From Clostridia bacterium (GTDB lineage Bacteria; Bacillota; Clostridia; Oscillospirales; CAG-272): 64,000 nt of DNA. The position numbers and the translations under genes were made by a program. How positions within the stretch are numbered: the first letter of the stretch is position 1; the number at the start of each line of letters is the position of its first letter. The stretch is from contig JAQXHN010000028.1 of NCBI GenBank assembly GCA_029007295.1, positions 16,496 to 80,495 on the forward strand. The letters are read 5' to 3'. Below the pieces are notes generated by a model. The model saw nothing but the letters and a program-made list of their open reading frames with translations, was not told the origin of the DNA and did not search any database. Shown in pieces: positions 667-55,830 of this stretch.

Positions 667-3342
667 TTACATATAGCTGTTTATATACATTTGTTCGTAG
701 TGTTTTTGTTCCTTTTTGCGGTAATTTCTTTCAAATATGCATACTGTGGCGAATATTAATACTGCAAAAGCCGAAACGGTCAAGCCCACGGTAAAGCATT
801 TTGGGTTGTAACACAGCTCGATTTCGTGAGTGCCCTCGCTCAGATTTGCCGAAATCAAAGCGTTGGCGGTTTTGATAATAGGCGTAACCTTGCCGTCTAC
901 CTTGAGAACCCAGCCCTCGTCGTAGGGAATGGTTGTGAAAAGCGTCGTCATACCCTTTGGCATTGTAATATTACCGTACAGGCGTGTTGACGAATGCTCC
1001 GTAATGTTAAAGTTGCCCTTTTTCAGAGCTTCAAACGTTGAACGGTACAAATCCTCGTCGAGCGAAGCAAAGTAAAAGTCGCTTGATTTGTCAATATAGA
1101 GATTTTCTTCGGTCAAAGACAGCGTTACATTCAGCTTTCTTCCGGCCTCATACTTGCCTAATTCAACTATTCTGTCTGTTTCGTTTCCGAAGAAGGTTCC
1201 TTTAGGGGAGCCGTTGACATATATATTTACCTCTCTCGGATAATCGGACGGTATAAACATATATACCGTTTTATCGTCCGGAGCAGTTATTGTATATGTT
1301 ACCTGCGCCGATTCTTCCGAAGCTTCGGCGGTGTATTTTGTATGACCCTGAATGGAGGAATTAATGACGTTTTCCGTTTTGGTTTCTTCAATTTCGATTT
1401 TTCTGAAAAGCTCGACGGTAGAGTCTTTTCCGACGAAAGCTCCGACCATTTTGTTCATTAATTCAAACGGAGTTACAAAGGAGTCGATTTTGAAATTCGT
1501 ATTTATCTCCTTTGAGGACGCAAAGGCTACAGACAGCGAATAGGGATTGTAATATGCGTATGTTGAATTGCTCTCGTCGCTTGCGTAAAGCTCGTATAAA
1601 TCATTCGGATACATCGAATTGTAAATGATATATTTCAAGCCCAAGATGGCGTCGGAGACAGGGGTTCCTCCGAGGTATTCCGACCAGTGCGACTTCGATG
1701 AATAGCCCATTTGATTTAAAAATTTAATTTGAGAGGCGTTTAGAGTGGAGGTCGAGTTTGACAGACCGTTTATGCCGAGCGAAAAGTTGTCGTTTGTTTT
1801 TCTGTGAGAGGTTTTTTCCATTCGGTAAAAGGAAGTATCCTTCGATTTGACTTCGTCTACAATATCACGATATTGAGAAAGGAAGGACTGATAGGAGGTG
1901 CGCGAGCTTATTGTGACATCGTTGTCAAGGGCATTGAGATTGAAAAGCCCTGCGGAATATGTTTCCACCAATACAATAACGCATAGGATCAAAGCACCGC
2001 CCTTTCCGAGATATTCGTGCTTAACGGGATGGAGTGCCACAAGGTAAATCAGGACAAGCCCTGCGGAAATCCAAATACACGTAAGATCCGGCGTATTTGT
2101 AAATTTCATCTGCTGAACAATGAAAATAAGCACGCAGACCGACGCCGCAATCGCCGTTATTATCCGATAGTCAAAGTCTTTTATTTCACAAAAAGCACGG
2201 TAGGAGAAAACCAGCATGATAAAAACAAGCATAAAGCTGTATCGGTAATTCAGCCAGTTTGGGCGCTGAAGTCCGTGCCAAATAATATCTACGGTTGACG
2301 CCGCCATGGAAAAGCACAAAATACCTACCAGAACTCCGCCCCATATCTTTTCCCTTGCCTTTACCTTTTTTGAAAGAAAATACAGCGGGAACAAAAGGAG
2401 CGTAAGCATTCCGCAATATACAATAGGCAGTCCCTCGGGACGGACGGTGTCGTATGAGCCGAAGAGGAATTTTGCGAAAAACTCAAAGAAGGTGAATTTG
2501 GGTGCGAAGGTAAAGTCGGTTTTCTGGAATGTGTTTTTTCCGAATTGAAGCGATGTGTATGTCGGCATTAAAATCCACGCCGCCATAGCGCAGGCAATCA
2601 AGGAAAAGAAGCCTATTCGTAATAACGATTTAATAAAATGAGCCTTCTCGCCGTAAAAATTGTTTGAAATGCCGTCGTTTCTCGAGAAATAATAGTAGAA
2701 GAAATAAAGCACGACCCATATGCAAACCATATATCCGATATAGAAGGTTGCGCTTACGCACAGATACAGCGTTATTACAAAGAGCTTGTATTTTCTTTCG
2801 GAAATCAGCTTTTCAATGCCGAGAGTAATAAGCGGCAGATATATAAGTGCGTCAATCCACATGATATTATGTCCGTAAACAACGGCATAGCCGCAAAGGG
2901 CATACAGAGTTGAGAAAATGACCTTTGCAATTTGAGCTCCTTTATGCGAACGGTGCAGATAATACGCCATTGTAAGACCGCATGCGCCGCATTTCAGCAG
3001 CTCTATCACAAAAAGCGCTTCCGTAATATTTTCTTCGCGAAATAAAGCAACTATCAAAGAGAACGGGCTGGCCAGATAATATGCAAAAATTCCGAGGAAC
3101 TCGCCTCCCATGGCTCTTGACCACGAATACAGTATACTTTGGCCGCTGTGAATGATTTTGCGAAGCCCCTCAAAAAAGTATACATACTGACCGTTTAAAT
3201 CGAGCACCAGAACAGATGATTCGCCAAAGGGATAACAGCTCAGCGCCGCCTGAATTAACAATAATACCACCGTCGGCACAAAAAATGCCGCAATTAAAGT
3301 CGGGTAATCGGCGTCGGCAAGCCATGCTTTAATTTTTTTCAT
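667..3342 (-). CDS. YfhO-family multi-pass membrane protein (putative glycosyltransferase)
   Basis: 891 aa, many TM segments, N-terminal DLNGQYVYFFEGLRKII and a C-terminal beta-rich domain ending in GWVLKVDGKVTPIIKTANALISANLSEGTHEIELCYNPK, characteristic of YfhO. Confidence 0.88.
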   Translation of the reverse strand: MKKIKAWLADADYPTLIAAFFVPTVVLLLIQAALSCYPFGESSVLVLDLNGQYVYFFEGLRKIIHSGQSILYSWSRAMGGEFLGIFAYYLASPFSLIVALFREENITEALFVIELLKCGACGLTMAYYLHRSHKGAQIAKVIFSTLYALCGYAVVYGHNIMWIDALIYLPLITLGIEKLISERKYKLFVITLYLCVSATFYIGYMVCIWVVLYFFYYYFSRNDGISNNFYGEKAHFIKSLLRIGFFSLIACAMAAWILMPTYTSLQFGKNTFQKTDFTFAPKFTFFEFFAKFLFGSYDTVRPEGLPIVYCGMLTLLLFPLYFLSKKVKAREKIWGGVLVGILCFSMAASTVDIIWHGLQRPNWLNYRYSFMLVFIMLVFSYRAFCEIKDFDYRIITAIAASVCVLIFIVQQMKFTNTPDLTCIWISAGLVLIYLVALHPVKHEYLGKGGALILCVIVLVETYSAGLFNLNALDNDVTISSRTSYQSFLSQYRDIVDEVKSKDTSFYRMEKTSHRKTNDNFSLGINGLSNSTSTLNASQIKFLNQMGYSSKSHWSEYLGGTPVSDAILGLKYIIYNSMYPNDLYELYASDESNSTYAYYNPYSLSVAFASSKEINTNFKIDSFVTPFELMNKMVGAFVGKDSTVELFRKIEIEETKTENVINSSIQGHTKYTAEASEESAQVTYTITAPDDKTVYMFIPSDYPREVNIYVNGSPKGTFFGNETDRIVELGKYEAGRKLNVTLSLTEENLYIDKSSDFYFASLDEDLYRSTFEALKKGNFNITEHSSTRLYGNITMPKGMTTLFTTIPYDEGWVLKVDGKVTPIIKTANALISANLSEGTHEIELCYNPKCFTVGLTVSAFAVLIFATVCIFERNYRKKEQKHYEQMYINSYM

Positions 3343-10120: not shown

Positions 10121-11371
10121 ATGAAAAAAAACAAAAAATTACCCAAAGTCGAAACCGGCGGGGAATTAGTAATTAATCCCAAGGTAAGACCGGAGCCGAA
10201 TGAATATTTACTTGAGATATCGAGGAAAATAAAGCTATGCAAAATTCTTGTTATTCTCTTTACCGTAGTATTTATGTGCGGAATGATATTTATTTTCAGA
10301 AGCGATATTACTCTTGAAAATTACAGGTATTTAATTCGTTTCTTTTCGTCGGACGGGGATTATAACGGAGATTACAGAACTATATATTTCGATTCGGCGT
10401 CTACATCCTCCATAGGGATATTTAACGGCGACCTTGTAACCGTGTCGACGAACGGTATCAACCTTTACAGCATGAAGGGCAATAACACACTGACGGAAAA
10501 TCTGTCATATTCAAATCCTATGATAGATACACACGGGAAATATTTGGCGGTTTATGATCTCGGTGGTTATTCGTTCGAGCTTCTGAATAATTTTTCCGTA
10601 CTGTACAGCGAGACCTTTGATTATCCGATTTCACTTGCGAAGGTTTCAGAGGACGGAATGTTTGCGCTTGTAACAAAATCGCTGGAGTATCAGTCGGTCG
10701 TCAATCTCTATGACCATAATTTTCGTCTGCTGTCCAGAATTTACAAGGATAAATATGTAATGGATTTGGATATTTCACACGACGAATCGGAAATACTTGT
10801 CGTATCTGCTTATTCTGAAAACGGAATCTACTGCTCCGAGGTAATGATAGGTCAGCCGTATGTTTCGGAATCGGAGTCCACAGCGGTTTTGACTAACGAA
10901 TTTGCGCTTTCATGCAATTATTTTGCCGACGGCTCATATTGCGTCATGACCGATAAGGCTCTTCATTTTTATAACGACGATAATCAAGAAACGGGAAATT
11001 ATCAATTCGGAAATATAGTTCCCACCAAATTTGAAGCAACCGAAAATAATGTAATTATATCTTACAACAAGAATATTGTCGGCTCGGAAATGGGAATATT
11101 CATATTTGATGAAAAGGGAGAGATTAAGTCCGAATATACCGTCCCCGACAGAGTTCTTGATATAGCCTGTTACAAGGACGATTTCTTCATTCTTTGCGCA
11201 AAAAATATTAACCGTTTGAATGTTAAGTCAGATGAAATTCAGTCATATCCCATTACCGGCGGCAGTACGAGAATATTTGTATGCGACGACGATACGGTAA
11301 TTGTAGGATATACTAATATGATAGAAGCGCATTCTGTTTCTAAAATGTTTAATGAAAAAGCAGGAGGATAA
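10121..11371 (+). CDS. DUF5711-like membrane-anchored beta-propeller protein
   Basis: One N-terminal TM (KILVILFTVVFMCGMIFIF) then repeated beta-strand blocks; placed before a CvpA-like gene. Confidence 0.65.
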   Translation: MKKNKKLPKVETGGELVINPKVRPEPNEYLLEISRKIKLCKILVILFTVVFMCGMIFIFRSDITLENYRYLIRFFSSDGDYNGDYRTIYFDSASTSSIGIFNGDLVTVSTNGINLYSMKGNNTLTENLSYSNPMIDTHGKYLAVYDLGGYSFELLNNFSVLYSETFDYPISLAKVSEDGMFALVTKSLEYQSVVNLYDHNFRLLSRIYKDKYVMDLDISHDESEILVVSAYSENGIYCSEVMIGQPYVSESESTAVLTNEFALSCNYFADGSYCVMTDKALHFYNDDNQETGNYQFGNIVPTKFEATENNVIISYNKNIVGSEMGIFIFDEKGEIKSEYTVPDRVLDIACYKDDFFILCAKNINRLNVKSDEIQSYPITGGSTRIFVCDDDTVIVGYTNMIEAHSVSKMFNEKAGG

Positions 11372-11373
11372 AA

Positions 11374-12078
11374 ATGGGTATTATTATTGATTTTATTTTA
11401 ATCGGTATAATTATTATTTCTGCAATTCTCGGTTGGAAAAGGGGCTTTTTCCGTTCGATTATGAAATTCGGCTCCGTAATAATTGCCGCTGTAGGCTCAT
11501 ATTTTCTGAACGGCGTATTTTCTTCGTTTTTGAAAAGCACGTTTATTATGCCGAAGATTTCGGAGTATATTTACAAATCCTATACTAAGATTTTCGGCGG
11601 AATGTCGCTTTCGGAGCTGTTTTCGGAGATGCCGGAATACTTTTCCAAGTGGCTCGACTCATATTCCGGCGTTGAAAAAGCAAAGGTTTGGTACTCCGGC
11701 ACGGCCAAGGCAAGCGAAAAAGGACTTTGCAATTCGTTAGCTGAGCCGATAGCGGAAAAAATATCGACGGTTACGGCTTATATTCTGGCTTTTATTGCGA
11801 TATTAATTGTGATCAGAATCATATGCTTTGTGGTTGACAGATTTTTGTCATTGCCTGTTCTTAACGGCGTAAATAAGCTGTTCGGACTGATATTCGGTAT
11901 TGCGACGGGGCTTATCGTATCCTGGATATGCGCCGAGGTGCTTCGCTTGGGAGTACCGGAGCTTGCAAAAATATACCCCGTATTTCAAGGGGCGGAACAA
12001 AGCAGTGTGTTTTTAACCGTTCTGTGCAGCTTCAATCCGTTAACGATATTCGACGTCTTCAAGTCAAAAATAAAATAA
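11374..12078 (+). CDS. CvpA family membrane protein
   Basis: IIIDFILIGIIIISAILGWKRGFFRSIMKFGSVIIAAVGSYF; typical CvpA N-terminus. Confidence 0.83.
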   Translation: MGIIIDFILIGIIIISAILGWKRGFFRSIMKFGSVIIAAVGSYFLNGVFSSFLKSTFIMPKISEYIYKSYTKIFGGMSLSELFSEMPEYFSKWLDSYSGVEKAKVWYSGTAKASEKGLCNSLAEPIAEKISTVTAYILAFIAILIVIRIICFVVDRFLSLPVLNGVNKLFGLIFGIATGLIVSWICAEVLRLGVPELAKIYPVFQGAEQSSVFLTVLCSFNPLTIFDVFKSKIK

Positions 12079-12101: not shown

Positions 12102-14447
12102 ATGCAAATGTGTTCAAGATGCCATAAAAGGGTGGCAGTTGTGTATATATCTCATATGGTTGACGGAAAAATGGTAAACGACGGACTTTGCATGAAGTGT
12201 GCAAAGGAGCTTGGAATACAGCCGGTCAACGATATTATAGAAAACATGGGGCTTTCCGAGGAGGACATAGATAATATGTCCATGGAGATGGATAACATGC
12301 TGGAGCCTTCTGAGGACAGCGAACCCTCGGAGGCGGGCGACGAATCCGAAGGAAGAGCGCCGAGCGTCGATTTTAACAAAATATTCGGGCAGATGAAGCT
12401 TCCTCCGTTTATGCAGGGAATTAAGGGAGGGGCGGGCTCTAACCCGAACGACCCGAAAGCCGGAAAAGCAAAGGGTGCCAAAAACGGTAAACAGCAAAAG
12501 GATGAGGGCAGAAAGTTCATAAATCTTTACTGCATGGATTTGACGGCAAAGGCAAGACAGGGAAAGCTTGATAAAATAGTCGGCAGAGACAGGGAAATTT
12601 CCCGTATGATGCAAATTCTGTGCAGAAGGCAAAAAAACAATCCCTGCCTTATAGGAGAACCCGGCGTCGGTAAAACCGCAATAGCCGAGGCGCTCGCACA
12701 GAAAATCGCAAACGGAAGCGTTCCCTACAGATTAAAGGATAAAGAGATTATGCTCGTGGACCTTACCGCCCTTGTTGCCGGAACACAGTTCAGAGGTCAG
12801 TTTGAGAGCAGAATGAAGGGACTTATTTCCGAGGTTAAAGCTCTCGGAAATATTATCCTTGTTATCGACGAGGTGCATAGCATAGTCGGTGCGGGCGACG
12901 CAGAGGGCTCAATGAATGCCGCCAATATTTTAAAGCCCGCCCTGTCAAGAGGCGATGTTCAGATAATAGGCGCCACTACATTGACCGAATACAGAAAATA
13001 TATCGAAAAGGATTCAGCGCTCGAAAGAAGATTTCAGCCAATTATTATTGAGGAGTCTTCCGTTGCCGATACTGTTGAGATTTTGGGCGGAATAAAGAGC
13101 TATTACGAAAATTTCCACGGTATATCGGTTCCTTTTGAAACCGTTAGAAGGGCAGTTTATCTCTCGGAAAGATATATTACGGAGCGGTATTTGCCCGATA
13201 AGGCTATAGACCTGCTTGATGAAGCGTGCGCACATCTTGTCTTGAAAACACCCGTCGTAGGACAGTGTGCGGAGCTGAAAGCGGAGCTTGAAAAAACGGA
13301 AAGGGAAAGAGCGGAGCTTGAAGCGCAGCCGGACCCGGAGGATCCTAAGGAAAGCGAAGAAAGGTATAAAAAACTTGCAGACCTTAAGGTGAAGGAAATA
13401 GGCGACAGACAGCGCCTTTGCGAATTAGAGGAGGAAAGAGCCAAGGTGTTCCTCTCTACCTCCGAATTGGCGGATGTTATTGAGATATGGACGGGCATTC
13501 CGGCAAGCAATATAACAGAACATGAATTCGGCAGGATAGACCGTCTTGCAGACAGATTGAAATCGAGAATTGTAGGTCAGGACGAGGCGGTTGACGCAGT
13601 AGCGAGAGCGATAAAGCGTTCAAGGGCGGGTATTTCCTATAAGAGAAAGCCGGTGTCGTTTATTTTTGCGGGACCTACGGGAGTCGGAAAAACGGAGCTT
13701 GTAAAAACGCTTGCCTCGGACTTATTTGATTCTCCCGAGTCGCTTATCAGGCTCGATATGTCCGAGTTTATGGAAAAGCACAGCGTATCGAGAATTATCG
13801 GTTCTCCTCCGGGGTATGTCGGATATGACGAAGCGGGACAGTTAACCGAGAAAATCAGAAGAAAGCCGTACTCCGTTGTCCTTTTCGACGAAATCGAAAA
13901 GGCGCATCCGGATGTACTGAACGTACTGCTGCAAATTCTCGACGACGGCAGAATAACCGATGCGCAGGGCAGATGCGTCAGTTTTGAAAATACAATAATC
14001 GCAATGACGACGAATGCGGGCTCTCAGACGGCGACAAATGCGGCGGGCTTCGGCGCAGATCTTGACGTTCTCGATTATGACAAAACAATGAAGGCGCTGT
14101 CGGATTTTCTGCGTCCCGAATTTATAAATCGCGTAGATGAAGTAATATCCTTCCATTCGCTTACCGAAGAAAATTTCGTTGCTATAGCAAATATTATGCT
14201 CTCCGACCTTAAAAAGGTTATGGAGGATAAAGAAATTGAATTCGGCTTTACCGACAGAGCTGCAAAGCTTGTTGCGTCAAAATCATATTCGCGCAAATTC
14301 GGCGCAAGAAATATGAGAAGATATATAGAAAGAAATATTGAGGATAAAATAGCGGATAAAATAATATCCTCTTACGAAAATGCAATTCATTCCATTTCGG
14401 TGGATGTTGCCGAAAACGGGCTGGAGCCGTTAATTATTTGTAACTGA
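12102..14447 (+). CDS. ClpE-like AAA+ unfoldase with N-terminal CxxC...CxxC zinc finger
   Basis: [38 protein letters not shown]; two AAA+ modules ([30 protein letters not shown]); short middle domain; NAAGFGAD near the usual ClpP-binding loop position. Confidence 0.88.
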
Positions 14448-14461
14448 ACAAGAGGGAAAGT

Positions 14462-17254
14462 ATGCAAAAGCGTTGGTATAACCTTACAACAGAGCAAATC
14501 GCAGAACAATTGAATACCGACACTGAGGCAGGGCTTTCCGCCAAACAAGCAAGAAAGCGACTCTCGGTTTACAAGGAAAACGACGCTTTTATTATGCCGG
14601 AAAATTCCTTTTCGTCATATGTAAAGGCTGTTTCAAAGGACGTTACCGGTTACATGATGATAGCGTCCGCCGTCATGGCGGTAATATTTTCCGAAGAGGT
14701 CAGCGCCCTTGTGATAATTGCTCTGATCCTGCTTAATTTTGTTTCTGCGCTGTTATTCTACGGAAACAGTGCGAAAACACTGCACAATATGGCAAAGTAC
14801 GCTTCTCCCATGTCAAGGGTAGTGCGGGATTCACAGCTTACGCTGATAAATCAGCGAAAAATCGTTCCCGGCGATATTATTGTGCTCGGAGCCGGAGATA
14901 TTGTACCGTGTGACTGCAGAATTATTTCGTGCGATAATTTTTTCTGTCTTGAAAAAAATCTGACCGGGGTTTCCTCGGAGGTGCAAAAGGACCCGAAGCT
15001 TATATACGGCTTAAATGTCCGTGTTGAAAATCAGAAAAATACAGCGTTTGCGACGTCTCTTGTGACTAAGGGTACAGCTACGGCAATCGCCTGCGAAACA
15101 GGCAGTAATACATACGCCAATGAAATTAACGCAAGGCCGGAAATAATAACTCACGATAATCTTGACATTATCAGGGCAATGAAAAAATACAGCACGTCAT
15201 GGGGCTTGACCATGCTGTTTATGATTCTTGTGCTCACCGGTCTTGACTTAATTCTCGGACTGAAAACACGGAGTCTTTTTGATATTTTTATCAGCGGCTT
15301 ATCCCTTGCCGTAGCGGCCATGACGGAGATGTATGCGGTATTCGGATATTTCGTTATCGCTCACGGACTTAATTCCTCCATCAGAAAATACGGAAAGGTT
15401 ATCAGCGGAGCGGCGATAAAAAACGTTGAGCTTTTACCGAAAATCAAGGATATTACAACGCTTATAGTACCGAAAAAGGGAGGCTTTTTTGCAAAAACGA
15501 CCGCCCTTGAAATGCTTTGGTGTCAGGATACGCTTCATAGGGCGGACGAGAGAAATTTGCTTAGATACTGCGACAGGCTGCTGAAGCTGGCAATGCTTTC
15601 ATCAGGCTATAACGGAGCAAACAGAGATGTGTTGAAAAATCCTGCGAACGACGCCTGCGCTATAGTATCTGCGTCAGAAAAGCTCGGTCTGGACAGAAAT
15701 ACAGTCGGTACGGAAAATCCGTGTCTTGACTATACGCAGATTGAGCTTGCGGAGCAGCAATGCGATTTGTCTCTTGTAGCCTATGACGACGACATATATG
15801 CTCTTGCAAAGGGAGACGCAAAGCGTCTTTTGTATAAATGCTCAACCTATTTTGATGATAATCAGGAAAAGCCGTTAACCGAAAAGGAAAAAAAGCGTAT
15901 ATCGGATACGATAGACAATATTACCGAAAAGGGCTATCGGGCTCTCGGAATAATTTCTCGTAAATCGGACATATTTCTTGCCGGAGGCGTTGATTCCGAG
16001 CTGTGCGACTGGAACTTTGAGGGCTTTGTCATTATGCTTGACGTTATGCTTCGCGGAGCAAAGGAAACCGTAGAGCTTTGCCGGAAGAATAATATAAAGG
16101 TTATGATGCTTTGCGACGAAACGGGAGAGCAAAACAGAGTGTACGCAAAAAGATTGGGATTAATAAGCGAGGAGGGCGGCGTATCGGACGGTGTTTTGAC
16201 GTCTAAGGATATGTCTTCGATGTCCGATTATGAGTTTTCCGAAAAGCTTTCGGGTTACGCTCTGTTAGAGGGACTTACGTTTCTCCAAAAGAAGCTTTTG
16301 ATTTCGCACCTTCAGAAAAAGGGTGAGGTTGTCGGTTATCTTGCAACCGAGCTTGATGAAACAATACTTCTGAAAAAGGCGGACGTAGGCTTTACCGGTG
16401 CGCTTGCCCTTTCGGACGGTGCATCTTCGATAGATTTATGTATGAACGATTCGCCCGTGTATATTCACAATAAAACGGATAATCCCGCCGGCTGCGAGGC
16501 GTTGAAATTCATTTGCGATGTATTGGTATCTCCGCCCGAACGGAAATTCGGCGGCTTTAACGGCATGGTATCTGCGGTTATGGCTTCAAAGAACATCTAC
16601 CGAAACATAAAGAAAACAATAAAATATCTGATCGCTTCACAGCTTACAAGATTTCTCATTGTGCTTTATTCTGTCGTCGCCGGATATTTCGGAATAAACG
16701 GTACGCTCAGAATGTTGACCTCGCCCCAGGTCCTTTTCTCGGGCTTGATTTGCGATTTTGCAGTTGTTGTCGCTATTGCGTTTCAAAGGAGAAATAACAT
16801 TTCTTCCGCATGTGATATCAGCGTCACGGAGCCGTCAAAATCCGTTCTTAACAAGCTTTCTCCCATTTTACTGTCCGTAATATGGACGGTATTAATTGTG
16901 ATTTCACCGATAATAATTTCCGCTTTTTCAATAAAAATGACAAGTGAGGAAATAACCTCAACGGTGTTTGTTTTATATATTCTGTCTCAGATTATAGTAG
17001 CATGGGAGATTATAATCGACGGCTCTGCGTTTCGGCTTAAAAAAGGTATAAACAAGGCAATGGCTGTGATATCGCTGTTTGTCGTGCTTTTTACCGCTGC
17101 ATTGAACATTCCGTTCTTCGGCGCTCTGTTTGACTATGTGACGCTGAACCCGGCAGAATGGATTTGTATAGCTGCCATTTTGACGTTGCTGTTTGCTCTG
17201 ATTGAATTATTTAAGCAGATAAGACGCGCCGTAACGGTACGCTTAGGCAAATGA
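14462..17254 (+). CDS. P-type ATPase-like protein lacking catalytic motifs (putative pseudo-ATPase)
   Basis: P2-type architecture (cation-ATPase N-terminal domain, PGDIIVLGAGDIVPCD actuator, TM blocks) but DKTGT reads PKKGG, TGES reads TGVS, TGDGVND reads LATELDE, IPEGL reads MTEMY; ORF intact for 930 codons. Confidence 0.85.
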   Translation: MQKRWYNLTTEQIAEQLNTDTEAGLSAKQARKRLSVYKENDAFIMPENSFSSYVKAVSKDVTGYMMIASAVMAVIFSEEVSALVIIALILLNFVSALLFYGNSAKTLHNMAKYASPMSRVVRDSQLTLINQRKIVPGDIIVLGAGDIVPCDCRIISCDNFFCLEKNLTGVSSEVQKDPKLIYGLNVRVENQKNTAFATSLVTKGTATAIACETGSNTYANEINARPEIITHDNLDIIRAMKKYSTSWGLTMLFMILVLTGLDLILGLKTRSLFDIFISGLSLAVAAMTEMYAVFGYFVIAHGLNSSIRKYGKVISGAAIKNVELLPKIKDITTLIVPKKGGFFAKTTALEMLWCQDTLHRADERNLLRYCDRLLKLAMLSSGYNGANRDVLKNPANDACAIVSASEKLGLDRNTVGTENPCLDYTQIELAEQQCDLSLVAYDDDIYALAKGDAKRLLYKCSTYFDDNQEKPLTEKEKKRISDTIDNITEKGYRALGIISRKSDIFLAGGVDSELCDWNFEGFVIMLDVMLRGAKETVELCRKNNIKVMMLCDETGEQNRVYAKRLGLISEEGGVSDGVLTSKDMSSMSDYEFSEKLSGYALLEGLTFLQKKLLISHLQKKGEVVGYLATELDETILLKKADVGFTGALALSDGASSIDLCMNDSPVYIHNKTDNPAGCEALKFICDVLVSPPERKFGGFNGMVSAVMASKNIYRNIKKTIKYLIASQLTRFLIVLYSVVAGYFGINGTLRMLTSPQVLFSGLICDFAVVVAIAFQRRNNISSACDISVTEPSKSVLNKLSPILLSVIWTVLIVISPIIISAFSIKMTSEEITSTVFVLYILSQIIVAWEIIIDGSAFRLKKGINKAMAVISLFVVLFTAALNIPFFGALFDYVTLNPAEWICIAAILTLLFALIELFKQIRRAVTVRLGK

Positions 17255-17257
17255 CTA

Positions 17258-17286
17258 TTGACTGTATTAACAAATTGTGGTATAAT
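17258..17286 (+). promoter_or_regulatory. Sigma-A-type promoter for the glycosyltransferase cluster
   Basis: TTGACT (17258-17263), 17-nt spacer, TATAAT (17281-17286), 38 nt before the ATG at 17324. Confidence 0.75.
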
Positions 17287-52042: not shown

Positions 52043-53467
52043 TTATTTGTGTTGCTGCTGCGTCAAAGTTATATTTGCAGCAATCACCGCACACTGACCC
52101 CGGGTAAGGGGAGAATACGGTGAAAATTCAGTATCCGACGTGCCAACGGATATTTTGTTTTTGTACGCCCACTTTACTGCGTTGATTTCGACCGGGGAAA
52201 GCAAAGCAACATCGGAGAACGGGAGCTCGGTATCTGAAATATCTTTATTATCCGAAAGAGCGTACAGCGTAGTTATCAAATCAAGTCTTGAAACCGTTTC
52301 TTTTCCGAGAAGCTCGGGACAATGCTCCTTTGCATACATTCTCGACGCCGAATACCACCTTCCGTCTGTTTTATACTGTGAAAGGTCTATGTTTTTCAGC
52401 CTTGCCGTTATAAGGCAGGCCATGTCCGATGAAAGCGGTAAATCAGGCGAGAAAGCCGAAAGGGAGGTGCCCTTCATTATATCGGTGCCGAAGCAGTAAT
52501 TTGCATACGGCGTATACCATTTATTGCGGGGAAGATCGGTAAATGACGGTTCCGAAGAAAATTTCAAGCCGTTTTCCTTGCAGAATTTTTCAAGATAATC
52601 ACCCTTTCCGAATAAAATGGCGTTATAGGTCAGGTAAAATGCATCGCTGTCTATTTCGGTCACATTTTCGGGAATATGTACGCAAAGAAGAGTGTCGCAT
52701 CTTGAAAATGCGGCGTATTCTATCGCTTTACATTTTTCGGGTATATATATTTCCCTAATTGAGGAGCATCCGTCAAAAGCGGAATCCTCGATAGCTTCTA
52801 TGCTGTCGGGAATATAAACATACCCGAGCTCGGAGTCCTCGTAGAATACTGCGCCGCCGAGGTATTTAAGAGAATCGGGAAATTCAATATGCTTCAGCGA
52901 ATGACACTTATAAAAGGCGCAGTCGCCGACATATTCAAGTCCCTCGGGAAGAGTTACTGTTTTGAGCGAGTCGCAGAAGTAAAAGCTCCATTTGTCAATT
53001 TTTCTTATCGTTGTCGGAAATACAACGGTTTCAAGCTCAAAACACTTGTAAAACGAGCTTTCACCCACCGTCTCAAAGCCCTCGGGAAATTCAATTTTCG
53101 TAATGCGCGAGCCGCTGAAAACAGACGTGCCTATGCTCTTTAACGATTTACCCAAATCAATTTCGCATAAATTTCGGTCGGAATAAAACGCCAAAGAGTC
53201 AATCCTTTCCACGGGAGCGGTAATTTTTACGGTTTTTAAATCCTCCCTGTGGGAAAATGAATTAATCGGAATGTACGAAATGCTCCCCGAAATAATCAAA
53301 TGCTCTATTTCATATGCATTAAAATCAGTTGTTTCTAAAGCATTTTGCGTAGAAACCGTCATGGTTTTTGTTGTATTGTCGTATGACAGTTCATCATTTG
53401 CGCTTACGTTAAGCACCGGTTGAAGGAGTAAAACAATTGAGATAATTGCCGTAAATATTCGTTTCAT
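52043..53467 (-). CDS. Secreted BspA-type leucine-rich repeat protein with C-terminal SLH-like repeats
   Basis: Repeated LRR_5 units (IDKWSFYFCDSLKTVTLPEGLEYVGDCAFYKCHSLKHIEFPDSLKYLGGAVFY...) then FTDLPRNKWYTPYANYCFGTDIMKG and SLH-like C-terminus. Confidence 0.83.
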   Translation of the reverse strand: MKRIFTAIISIVLLLQPVLNVSANDELSYDNTTKTMTVSTQNALETTDFNAYEIEHLIISGSISYIPINSFSHREDLKTVKITAPVERIDSLAFYSDRNLCEIDLGKSLKSIGTSVFSGSRITKIEFPEGFETVGESSFYKCFELETVVFPTTIRKIDKWSFYFCDSLKTVTLPEGLEYVGDCAFYKCHSLKHIEFPDSLKYLGGAVFYEDSELGYVYIPDSIEAIEDSAFDGCSSIREIYIPEKCKAIEYAAFSRCDTLLCVHIPENVTEIDSDAFYLTYNAILFGKGDYLEKFCKENGLKFSSEPSFTDLPRNKWYTPYANYCFGTDIMKGTSLSAFSPDLPLSSDMACLITARLKNIDLSQYKTDGRWYSASRMYAKEHCPELLGKETVSRLDLITTLYALSDNKDISDTELPFSDVALLSPVEINAVKWAYKNKISVGTSDTEFSPYSPLTRGQCAVIAANITLTQQQHK

Positions 53468-55830
53468 GCTGTTCTCCTGAAGATTTTATTAAAGGCCTTA
53501 ACCGTCTTGTCAAGCAACCACCGGCATGAGAAAATTATCGGTACCGCAAGCATCAAAAATACCGCAAGGACGAGTGATGAGCCTAAGGAGAGCGGAACGA
53601 TTTTGAATAAACGGGGAAAAGTAATAACGGCAAAAACAAAAATGACAGGCATCGCAATCATTATCGCTGTGCGAAGCTTATTGAACGGCTTGCAAACAAA
53701 ATACAGATTAAGCATTCCCACAAAGCCTATCAGAATTTCGCAAACCGTAGATATTTCGTCATCCGGTATATTGAATGCAATCTGGAAAAGGACTGTTCCC
53801 ACCAATACAAACAATATGCAAAGCGCCGCAGGCAAAGCCCTGTACATAGCGTTTTGTAAAAATTTACCCTGAATAATTGATTTGTTGGGTTCAAGCGCCA
53901 AAAAGAAGGACGGAATGCCTATGGTTGTCATGTTGACAATAGTGAGATTTGCAGGCGTTATGGGATAGGTGAATACCGCAAATATGGAAATTACGGCAAA
54001 TAAAATGGAAAATATGTTTTTCACAAGATAAAGGGACGCCGACCGTTCGATATTATTGATAACCCTTCTTCCCTCGTCAACAACAAAGGGAAGAGAGGAA
54101 AAATCGGAATTCAGCAGAACAAGATTTGATACCTGAGCTGCGGCGTCGGAGCCGGACGCCATGGCGATAGAGCAGTCCGCTTCCTTTAATGCGAGAATAT
54201 CGTTTACGCCGTCTCCCGTCATTGCCACCGTTTTTCCCGCCGCTTTTAACGCACGGACTAATATTCTCTTTCTGTCGGGAGTAACTCTGCCGAATACCGT
54301 ATATTCGGTTGCGGCCGAACGAACGGAGTTGTCATCCGGCAGGGAGGAAAGGTCGACGGCGTTTTCTGCGCCCGGAATTCCGGCTTGTTTTGCCGCGGCG
54401 CATACGGTCGAGGGCGCATCGCCGGAAATTACCTTTATGTTTACCCCTTGCTTTGTAAAGTAATTAAACGTTTCCTTTGCATTTTCTCTTACGGCATTGA
54501 GAAGTGTAACCGCACACAGAACTTCAACAGAGGAAGGGTTTAATTTATCGGGAGCGACCGACGACAGAGTTTTTGCGAACAGCAAGACACGGGAACCGTC
54601 GTCGGCAAGGGGGGTGATATCCTCCTCATATTCGCAAAATCTGTTCTTCAGAATAAACTCGGGGGCTCCGATAATGTATGAAGTACCGTTTTTGAAGGTT
54701 GCGGCGCTGTATTTGTATTTTGAGGAGAACGGTACCGTTGACAGTGCGCTTTGCACGTTTTCTTTACCGAAATAATCGCTTAGCGCTTTCATTGTGTCAT
54801 TATCGGCGTTTAGATTTCCCACAAGCTCGCCTATCTTGTCCGATAATTCCTCTTCGGACATACCGCAAAGGGGGTGAATACCCGTAACCTTCATTTCCGG
54901 TTCGGTAATTGTACCTGTTTTGTCAACGCAAAGCGTGTCCACCCTTGCAAGCGTTTCAATGCAGGACAGCTCGTGAACAAGAGTTTTCTTTTTTGCCAAA
55001 CGCATAACGCCGACTGCAAGAGCAACGCTGGTTAAAAGATAAAGCCCCTCGGGAATCATTCCTACAAGTGCGCCGGCAGTGGTGGAAACAGCGGTTTTAA
55101 GCGTTTCTCCGTTCCGGAGGTTTCCCATAACCATAAAGAATCCTATAGGGATGATAATGATACCGATTACAAGAACAAGTCTTGAAAGGGAGCGCATCAT
55201 TGCGCCCTTGGTATTGCCCTTCATTTTCTTTGCGTCCTGCGATAGCTTTGATACGTAAGAATCGTCGCCGACAGCGGTTAATTCGGCATAGCATGAGCCG
55301 GATACGACAAAGCTGCCGGACAGCAGGGTTGAGGATCTCGACTTGGTTATTTCATCGGATTCGCCTGTAATCAGCGACTCGTTTACGGAAATTTCACCGC
55401 TGAGCACCTTGGCGTCGGCGCAAATCTGATCACCTGCGCCGAGTATTACAGTATCTCCGAGCACAAGCTCGCTGACGGGGATATTTTTCTGAACGCCGGA
55501 GCGGATAACCTTAGCCGTAGGAGAATTCAAAAGGGAAAGCTTGTCCAGCGTTCTTTTCGAGCGAAGCTCCTGTATTATACCGATAACGGAGTTGACAATG
55601 ATAACTAAAATAAACGTCAATTCCAGCAACGAGCTGCCGACTGCGATCAGCGCAACCGCAATAATTGCAAAAATCAGATTAAAATATGTGAAAACATTTG
55701 TCAGAATAATCTGCTTCACCGATTTCGAAGGAGAAGACGATGAAATATTGACATCGCCATTTGCAATTCTGTTTTCCGCTTCGGCTTCGGTTAAGCCTTT
55801 GTATTTCGAAGTGTCGGGTAATTTTGTCAT
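53464..55830 (-). CDS. Cation-translocating P-type ATPase, catalytic motifs intact
   Basis: LITGESDEI, LCVDKTGTITEPEM, MTGDGVNDILALKEADCSIAM, GMIPEGLYLL. Confidence 0.93.
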   Translation of the reverse strand: MTKLPDTSKYKGLTEAEAENRIANGDVNISSSSPSKSVKQIILTNVFTYFNLIFAIIAVALIAVGSSLLELTFILVIIVNSVIGIIQELRSKRTLDKLSLLNSPTAKVIRSGVQKNIPVSELVLGDTVILGAGDQICADAKVLSGEISVNESLITGESDEITKSRSSTLLSGSFVVSGSCYAELTAVGDDSYVSKLSQDAKKMKGNTKGAMMRSLSRLVLVIGIIIIPIGFFMVMGNLRNGETLKTAVSTTAGALVGMIPEGLYLLTSVALAVGVMRLAKKKTLVHELSCIETLARVDTLCVDKTGTITEPEMKVTGIHPLCGMSEEELSDKIGELVGNLNADNDTMKALSDYFGKENVQSALSTVPFSSKYKYSAATFKNGTSYIIGAPEFILKNRFCEYEEDITPLADDGSRVLLFAKTLSSVAPDKLNPSSVEVLCAVTLLNAVRENAKETFNYFTKQGVNIKVISGDAPSTVCAAAKQAGIPGAENAVDLSSLPDDNSVRSAATEYTVFGRVTPDRKRILVRALKAAGKTVAMTGDGVNDILALKEADCSIAMASGSDAAAQVSNLVLLNSDFSSLPFVVDEGRRVINNIERSASLYLVKNIFSILFAVISIFAVFTYPITPANLTIVNMTTIGIPSFFLALEPNKSIIQGKFLQNAMYRALPAALCILFVLVGTVLFQIAFNIPDDEISTVCEILIGFVGMLNLYFVCKPFNKLRTAIMIAMPVIFVFAVITFPRLFKIVPLSLGSSLVLAVFLMLAVPIIFSCRWLLDKTVKAFNKIFRRTA

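Follow-up and report, generated by a model that had tools for sequence, protein, structure and literature searches.

A single phosphorylated aspartate is the defining feature of P-type ATPases, a textbook class of enzymes. Adaptors of the ClpC and ClpE unfoldases, such as McsB, bring substrates to the unfoldase, and it is this role that is proposed below for a degenerate P-type protein. The nearest precedents for such a protein are human TMEM94 (ERMA), whose status is disputed, and the alveolate guanylate cyclase PfGCbeta with its degenerate P4 domain. Neither a phosphorylation cycle nor ATPase activity was found for TMEM94 in a 2025 study (PMC12134183), whereas a 2026 paper names it the ER Mg2+ ATPase (PMC13322241). 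In PfGCbeta, a degenerate P-type domain has been kept within a signalling protein (PMC6592433). No precedent for a bacterial P-type pseudoenzyme was found in the open-access literature searched.

The locus described here lies in a 64,000-nucleotide stretch of DNA (the window) and encodes a protein that is best read, from its sequence, as a pseudoenzyme derived from a P2-type Ca2+-ATPase (Table 1). It is very probable that the pump cycle has been lost and the fold retained under selection.

Table 1. Features of the pseudo-ATPase locus, with positions counted from the first base of the window
Feature	Position	Strand	Basis
DUF5711 protein	10121..11371	+	
CvpA-family membrane protein, borders clpE across most of the order's families	11374..12078	+	
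ClpE-like AAA+ unfoldase, 14 bases upstream of the pseudo-ATPase	12102..14447	+	domains and Cys pairs
Pseudo-P2-type ATPase of 930 aa, next gene after clpE	14462..17254	+	sequence and profile matches
Actuator (A) domain, best-conserved soluble domain	14798..15157	+	Pfam E1-E2_ATPase in 14/14
TGVS at A-domain TGES position, residues 168-171, dephosphorylation Glu lost	14963..14974	+	
TM4 MTEMY at PEGL position, residues 287-291, Pro lost	15320..15334	+	alignment
TM4 ion-site Glu289, retained within MTEMY	15326-15328	+	alignment
PKKGG at DKTGT phosphorylation site, residues 337-341	15470..15484	+	alignment
MLCDE at MITGD position, residues 549-553	16106..16120	+	alignment
LATELDE at TGDGVND Mg2+ hinge, residues 627-633	16340..16360	+	alignment
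TM5 Arg730, in place of ion-site Glu of Ca2+ pumps	16649..16651	+	alignment
TM6 Gly761 (Asn in pumps) to Asp765 (ion-site Asp kept)	16742..16756	+	alignment
Sigma-70-like promoter candidate, 11/12, TG-extended, right after the pseudo-ATPase	17258..17286	+	consensus match only

A P2-type reading frame and its altered motifs

The 930-codon frame contains no internal stops, and the P2-type relationship proposed in a sequence-only reading of this DNA was upheld, the protein being Ca2+-ATPase-like. Pfam matches to E1-E2_ATPase, Cation_ATPase_N and Cation_ATPase_C lie above the Pfam cut-offs, and the best sequence matches are PMR1-type and LMCA1-type Ca2+-ATPases, far under the curated cut-offs. The HAD Hydrolase Pfam model found no match in the window protein and was absent in 13 of the 14 aligned members. 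Since the Pfam P-type cut-offs are passed, although no NCBIfam cut-off is reached, automated annotation would probably call the gene a cation-transporting ATPase, a label that would mislead metabolic models. An AlphaFold2 model based on 14 sequences (pLDDT 80, pTM 0.78) predicts a full P-type fold, in which the A, P, N and membrane domains are arranged canonically; Foldseek E-values reached down to 2.4e-43, and the top TM-score among the matches listed was that of hSPCA1 in the CaE1 state (0.77/0.79).

PKKGG, TGVS, LATELDE, MTEMY and MLCDE had all been read and placed correctly, each standing in the canonical motif column of the alignment with intact pumps. The accompanying claim that every catalytic signature is replaced holds for DKTGT, TGES and TGDGVND but is slightly too strong as a total. 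Indeed, the change from IPEGL to MTEMY does not remove the TM4 Glu, as the Glu of PEGL is retained; the TM6 Asp and the Lys-Gly of KGA persist as well. Another P-type ATPase of the window (53464-55830), put forward as an internal control, does keep DKTGT, TGES, PEG and GDGxND, but is of a different, shorter subtype (788 aa); the Ca2+-ATPase-type ORFs of relatives are better controls. With the phosphorylated Asp, the Mg2+-binding hinge Asp and the dephosphorylating Glu all gone, the normal E1P/E2P cycle is impossible by known chemistry. The P2A Ca2+-ATPase ion site is also incomplete, with TM5 Asn replaced by Gln, TM5 Glu by Arg and TM6 Asn by Gly.

Motif loss and selection across relatives

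Searches covered 59 relatives and then 297 genomes of the window's family (f1). Full-length relatives with long intact frames were found in dozens of genera; those in the aligned set share 22-34% identity with the window protein. When the stretch 3' of clpE was read in 80 more genomes of the order, P-type-like ORFs without DKTGT were seen there in two further families, f17 (5/6 genomes) and f20 (5/6), so that the arrangement is known from three families of one order. Apart from f1, the remaining families yielded no such ORF, and DKTGT was carried by none of the ORFs at that position. Beyond the order, the best 29 class-wide matches read outside f1 all keep DKTGT, a comparison that more divergent cases could escape. 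Named relatives are mostly MAGs called Clostridia, Clostridiales or Oscillospiraceae, several of them from the guts of deer, buffalo, horse and probably rabbit. One record is named Colimorpha enterica, a genus put in Bacteroidales by NCBI; this label is likely a case of mislabelling or contamination. A phage origin was also considered and rejected, the matches listed being weak (21-22% identity) and to unannotated Listeria and Enterococcus records.

The unbiased comparison of motifs is that between P-type ORFs adjacent to clpE and those located elsewhere in the first 160 loci. DKTGT was present in 0 of 49 distinct ORFs directly after a ClpE-like gene versus 79 of 81 elsewhere, and GDGxND was likewise found in 0/49. 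Both DKTGT-less ORFs of the second group sit at contig ends: in L059 the end of a clpE-type gene, cut by the contig, directly precedes the ORF, and in L020/L045 the ORF itself is cut at its start.

A pseudo-ATPase set (n=62), comprising f1 members picked mainly by their position after clpE and P-type-like ORFs from clpE regions, was compared with 62 reference intact pumps picked for DKTGT and GDGxND, whose 62/62 for these motifs is by construction. DKTGT occurred in 0/62 members of the pseudo set, and the phosphorylation-site Asp was present in two, neither inside DKTGT. The hinge GDGxND/TGDGVND was equally missing (0/62; first hinge Asp in 2/62), whereas TGES was found once (its Glu in 6/62) and PEGL once, the helix-breaking Pro of TM4 being lost in 59/62. 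Out of six catalytic core residues, each sequence retained 0 to 3. The number of columns conserved at 80% or more was 67 in the intact pumps and 11 in the pseudo set for the P domain, as against 31 and 22 for the A domain and 22 and 12 for M5-M6.

Some copies deviate in length or context. ORFs of 1073-1237 aa were found at L033:8619-11840, L034:8022-11330, L058:8001-11714 and L060:8001-11696, the first two with C-terminal extensions, and two f1 genomes carry deviant post-clpE copies of 1155 aa (L191:3985-7452) and 684 aa (L194:1314-3368). A 444-aa fragment near a contig end (L066:8001-9335), also missing the motifs, differs from all other copies in having no clpE within the preceding 8 kb.

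The former ion site has been remodelled in a lineage-dependent manner. The TM4 Glu is retained in 50/62 sequences of the pseudo set, with Asp in 7 more, and the TM6 Asp in 51/62, including 51/52 in f1. Within f1, TM5 bears Arg or Lys in 51/52 sequences, where pumps mostly have Glu, and TM6 has Gly in 51/52, where pumps have Asn; a conserved E-R/K-D trio thus occupies the site. In 51 sequences a basic TM5 residue is paired with an acidic TM6 residue, and 11 have neither, the pair being neutral in f17 and f20. This split mostly tracks the tree (f1 versus f17/f20), with one extra joint loss in f1, and so amounts to about two events; the charge covariation is only suggestive.

In a first tree, a branch with 100% support sets every intact pump apart, and a mixture-model tree of 30 rows split pseudo-ATPases from intact pumps with 100/100 support; long branches and odd composition were flagged, and the root was assumed among pumps. 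Family-by-family losses need not be invoked, as the pseudo rows all fall beyond one branch; nevertheless, given the long branches, independent losses in f17 and f20 are still conceivable. Pairwise NG86 dN/dS ranged from 0.04 to 0.24 for the pseudo-ATPases, values that indicate purifying selection but are rough because most dS exceed 1; the closest pair (dS 0.59) gave 0.04, and clpE gave 0.03-0.16. Thus, the catalytic residues were lost within one clade that evolves under purifying selection.

These results bear on the claim that the fold has been kept under selection for a non-pumping role, which is well supported by the shared losses, the low dN/dS and the recurrence of the arrangement in many separately assembled genomes. 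A decaying pseudogene, for which dN/dS near 1 would be expected, or an assembly artefact has nothing in its favour beyond the motif losses themselves; with dN/dS far under 1, long intact frames across dozens of genera, a single clade and recurrence in independent assemblies, this explanation is ruled out for practical purposes.

Linkage to clpE

Among the 92 f1 profile hits with clpE listed, 91 immediately follow clpE in the same orientation, the single exception being on another contig. The block conserved upstream in f1 ends with DUF5711, CvpA and clpE, followed by the pseudo-ATPase; the genes before DUF5711 are, in our reading, ecfA1-ecfA2-ecfT and a truA-like gene. A ribosome-binding-like AGAGGG precedes the pseudo-ATPase start, and the next transcript may begin at the promoter-like site listed in Table 1. 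The upstream protein has two AAA modules, N-terminal Cys pairs and a GF loop of the ClpP-binding type, and has no Clp_N match among those listed; its modules and Cys pairs suggest the name ClpE. Elsewhere in the window, the minus strand encodes an ordinary 891-aa YfhO-family membrane protein (667-3342; Pfam 9e-185).

Genes of the clpE type occur throughout the order, with a CvpA-like ORF upstream in most families sampled and DUF5711 often further upstream, and in about 20 other families clpE occurs without the pseudo-ATPase. As the CvpA-clpE pair is present in most families, the pseudo-ATPase seems to have joined this old pair later. The one paper found in the open-access literature to feature CvpA, ClpE and an operon is a Comamonas genome report. 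In at least one f1 genome (G020, L192) a different gene follows clpE, so the pseudo-ATPase was lost or moved there, and in another genome (G007) an intact Ca2+-ATPase-type gene (L035:5884-8670) is the divergent neighbour of the pseudo-ATPase. A change in ClpE tracking the presence of the pseudo-ATPase was considered and rejected: only five modest group-specific substitutions separate families with and without it, and the GF/GY loop is present in all. With ClpE so alike across families, no matching interface was found. CtsR and CIRCE sites, searched for as signs of heat-shock regulation, gave none above chance.

Proposed role and comparison with known systems

The loss of motifs in all clpE-adjacent copies and their retention elsewhere, together with the clpE linkage, suggest a partnership between the pseudo-ATPase and ClpE, and the linkage, which the sequence-only reading did not notice, favours an adaptor or receptor role. 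That the protein is a non-pumping membrane component acting with ClpE is given an even chance on the basis of gene order, which speaks for linkage rather than contact. Against it stand the roughly 20 families and at least one f1 genome in which ClpE manages on its own, and the failure to find a matching interface in ClpE. The cytosolic unfoldase would partner with the membrane protein encoded just downstream, which most likely would serve as a receptor or adaptor that directs ClpE, and with it ClpP, to substrates in the membrane or envelope, or alternatively would relay a membrane signal to ClpE; ATP hydrolysis would be supplied by ClpE. Instead of carrying Ca2+, the E289-R730-D765 trio probably locks the membrane domain into a single state or acts as a sensor of charge or protons. 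A more tentative proposal, less likely than not, is a machine for membrane quality control in bacteria, spanning three Clostridia families, with the phosphorylation-dead pump as receptor or docking platform and soluble ClpE as motor.

Given the polar membrane residues kept, the protein may instead act in transport or sensing without ClpE. The protein could be a non-pumping cation or proton sensor, in which the E-R-D site protonates or binds an ion and shifts the A domain, the ClpE link reflecting co-regulation only. The near invariance of the TM4 Glu, TM5 Arg/Lys and TM6 Asp in f1 and the joint change of the TM5 and TM6 charges are consistent with this, as is the reliance of P3A proton pumps on an Arg in TM5 and an Asp in TM6 (PMC10654040). 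However, the neutral pair in f17 and f20 shows that these charges are inessential to the whole group, and the constant clpE linkage is left without explanation, so that a sensor of this kind is rather unlikely. Passive or unconventional ATP-driven movement through a transporter or channel without phosphorylation would agree with the retained helical membrane domain and polar residues, but is improbable in view of the dismantled ion site, in which the TM4 Pro is mostly lost, TM6 Asn has become Gly and TM5 Glu has become Arg.

Just as improbable is a regulatory role in which the protein heterodimerises with one of the cell's intact pumps: the window's genome has other DKTGT-bearing P-type ATPases, one intact pump gene divergently adjoins the pseudo-ATPase in G007, and MgtA is reported to be a dimer (PMC10925321), but intact pumps are mostly unlinked and the constant neighbour is clpE. 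Handling of membrane helices or lipids, a function put forward for the eukaryotic P5A and P4 ATPases, would make the adjoining ClpE the motor, and P-type folds with non-ion cargo do exist (P4, P5A; PMC10654040, PMC11541931). Nevertheless, TM4 is without the helix-breaking prolines by which the canonical binding site is shaped, and this option is the least probable of the functional roles considered.

A non-pumping partner of ClpE, the preferred reading, suggests that an old pump has been given a new job. A widespread prokaryotic clade without the phosphorylated Asp would be a natural test of what the P-type fold can do without catalysis, and would bear on the disputed case of TMEM94, while the constant ClpE link makes the proposed role concrete and testable.

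The best sequence and structure matches are the P2A Ca2+-ATPases LMCA1 (PDB 6zhf, 9euq), PMR1/SPCA1 and SERCA, with which the pseudo-ATPase shares domain order, fold, the A-domain core, the TM4 Glu and the TM6 Asp. Unlike them, it is without DKTGT, TGES, TGDGVND and the PEGL Pro, has Arg for the TM5 Glu and Gly for the TM6 Asn, and its P domain has been largely released from constraint. TMEM94 resembles it in combining a P-type-like fold with the absence of TGES, but is eukaryotic and has no known Clp link. PfGCbeta, also eukaryotic, differs in that its P4-ATPase domain is fused to a cyclase. Known ClpC/ClpE adaptors are, to our knowledge, soluble and unrelated in sequence to the pseudo-ATPase.
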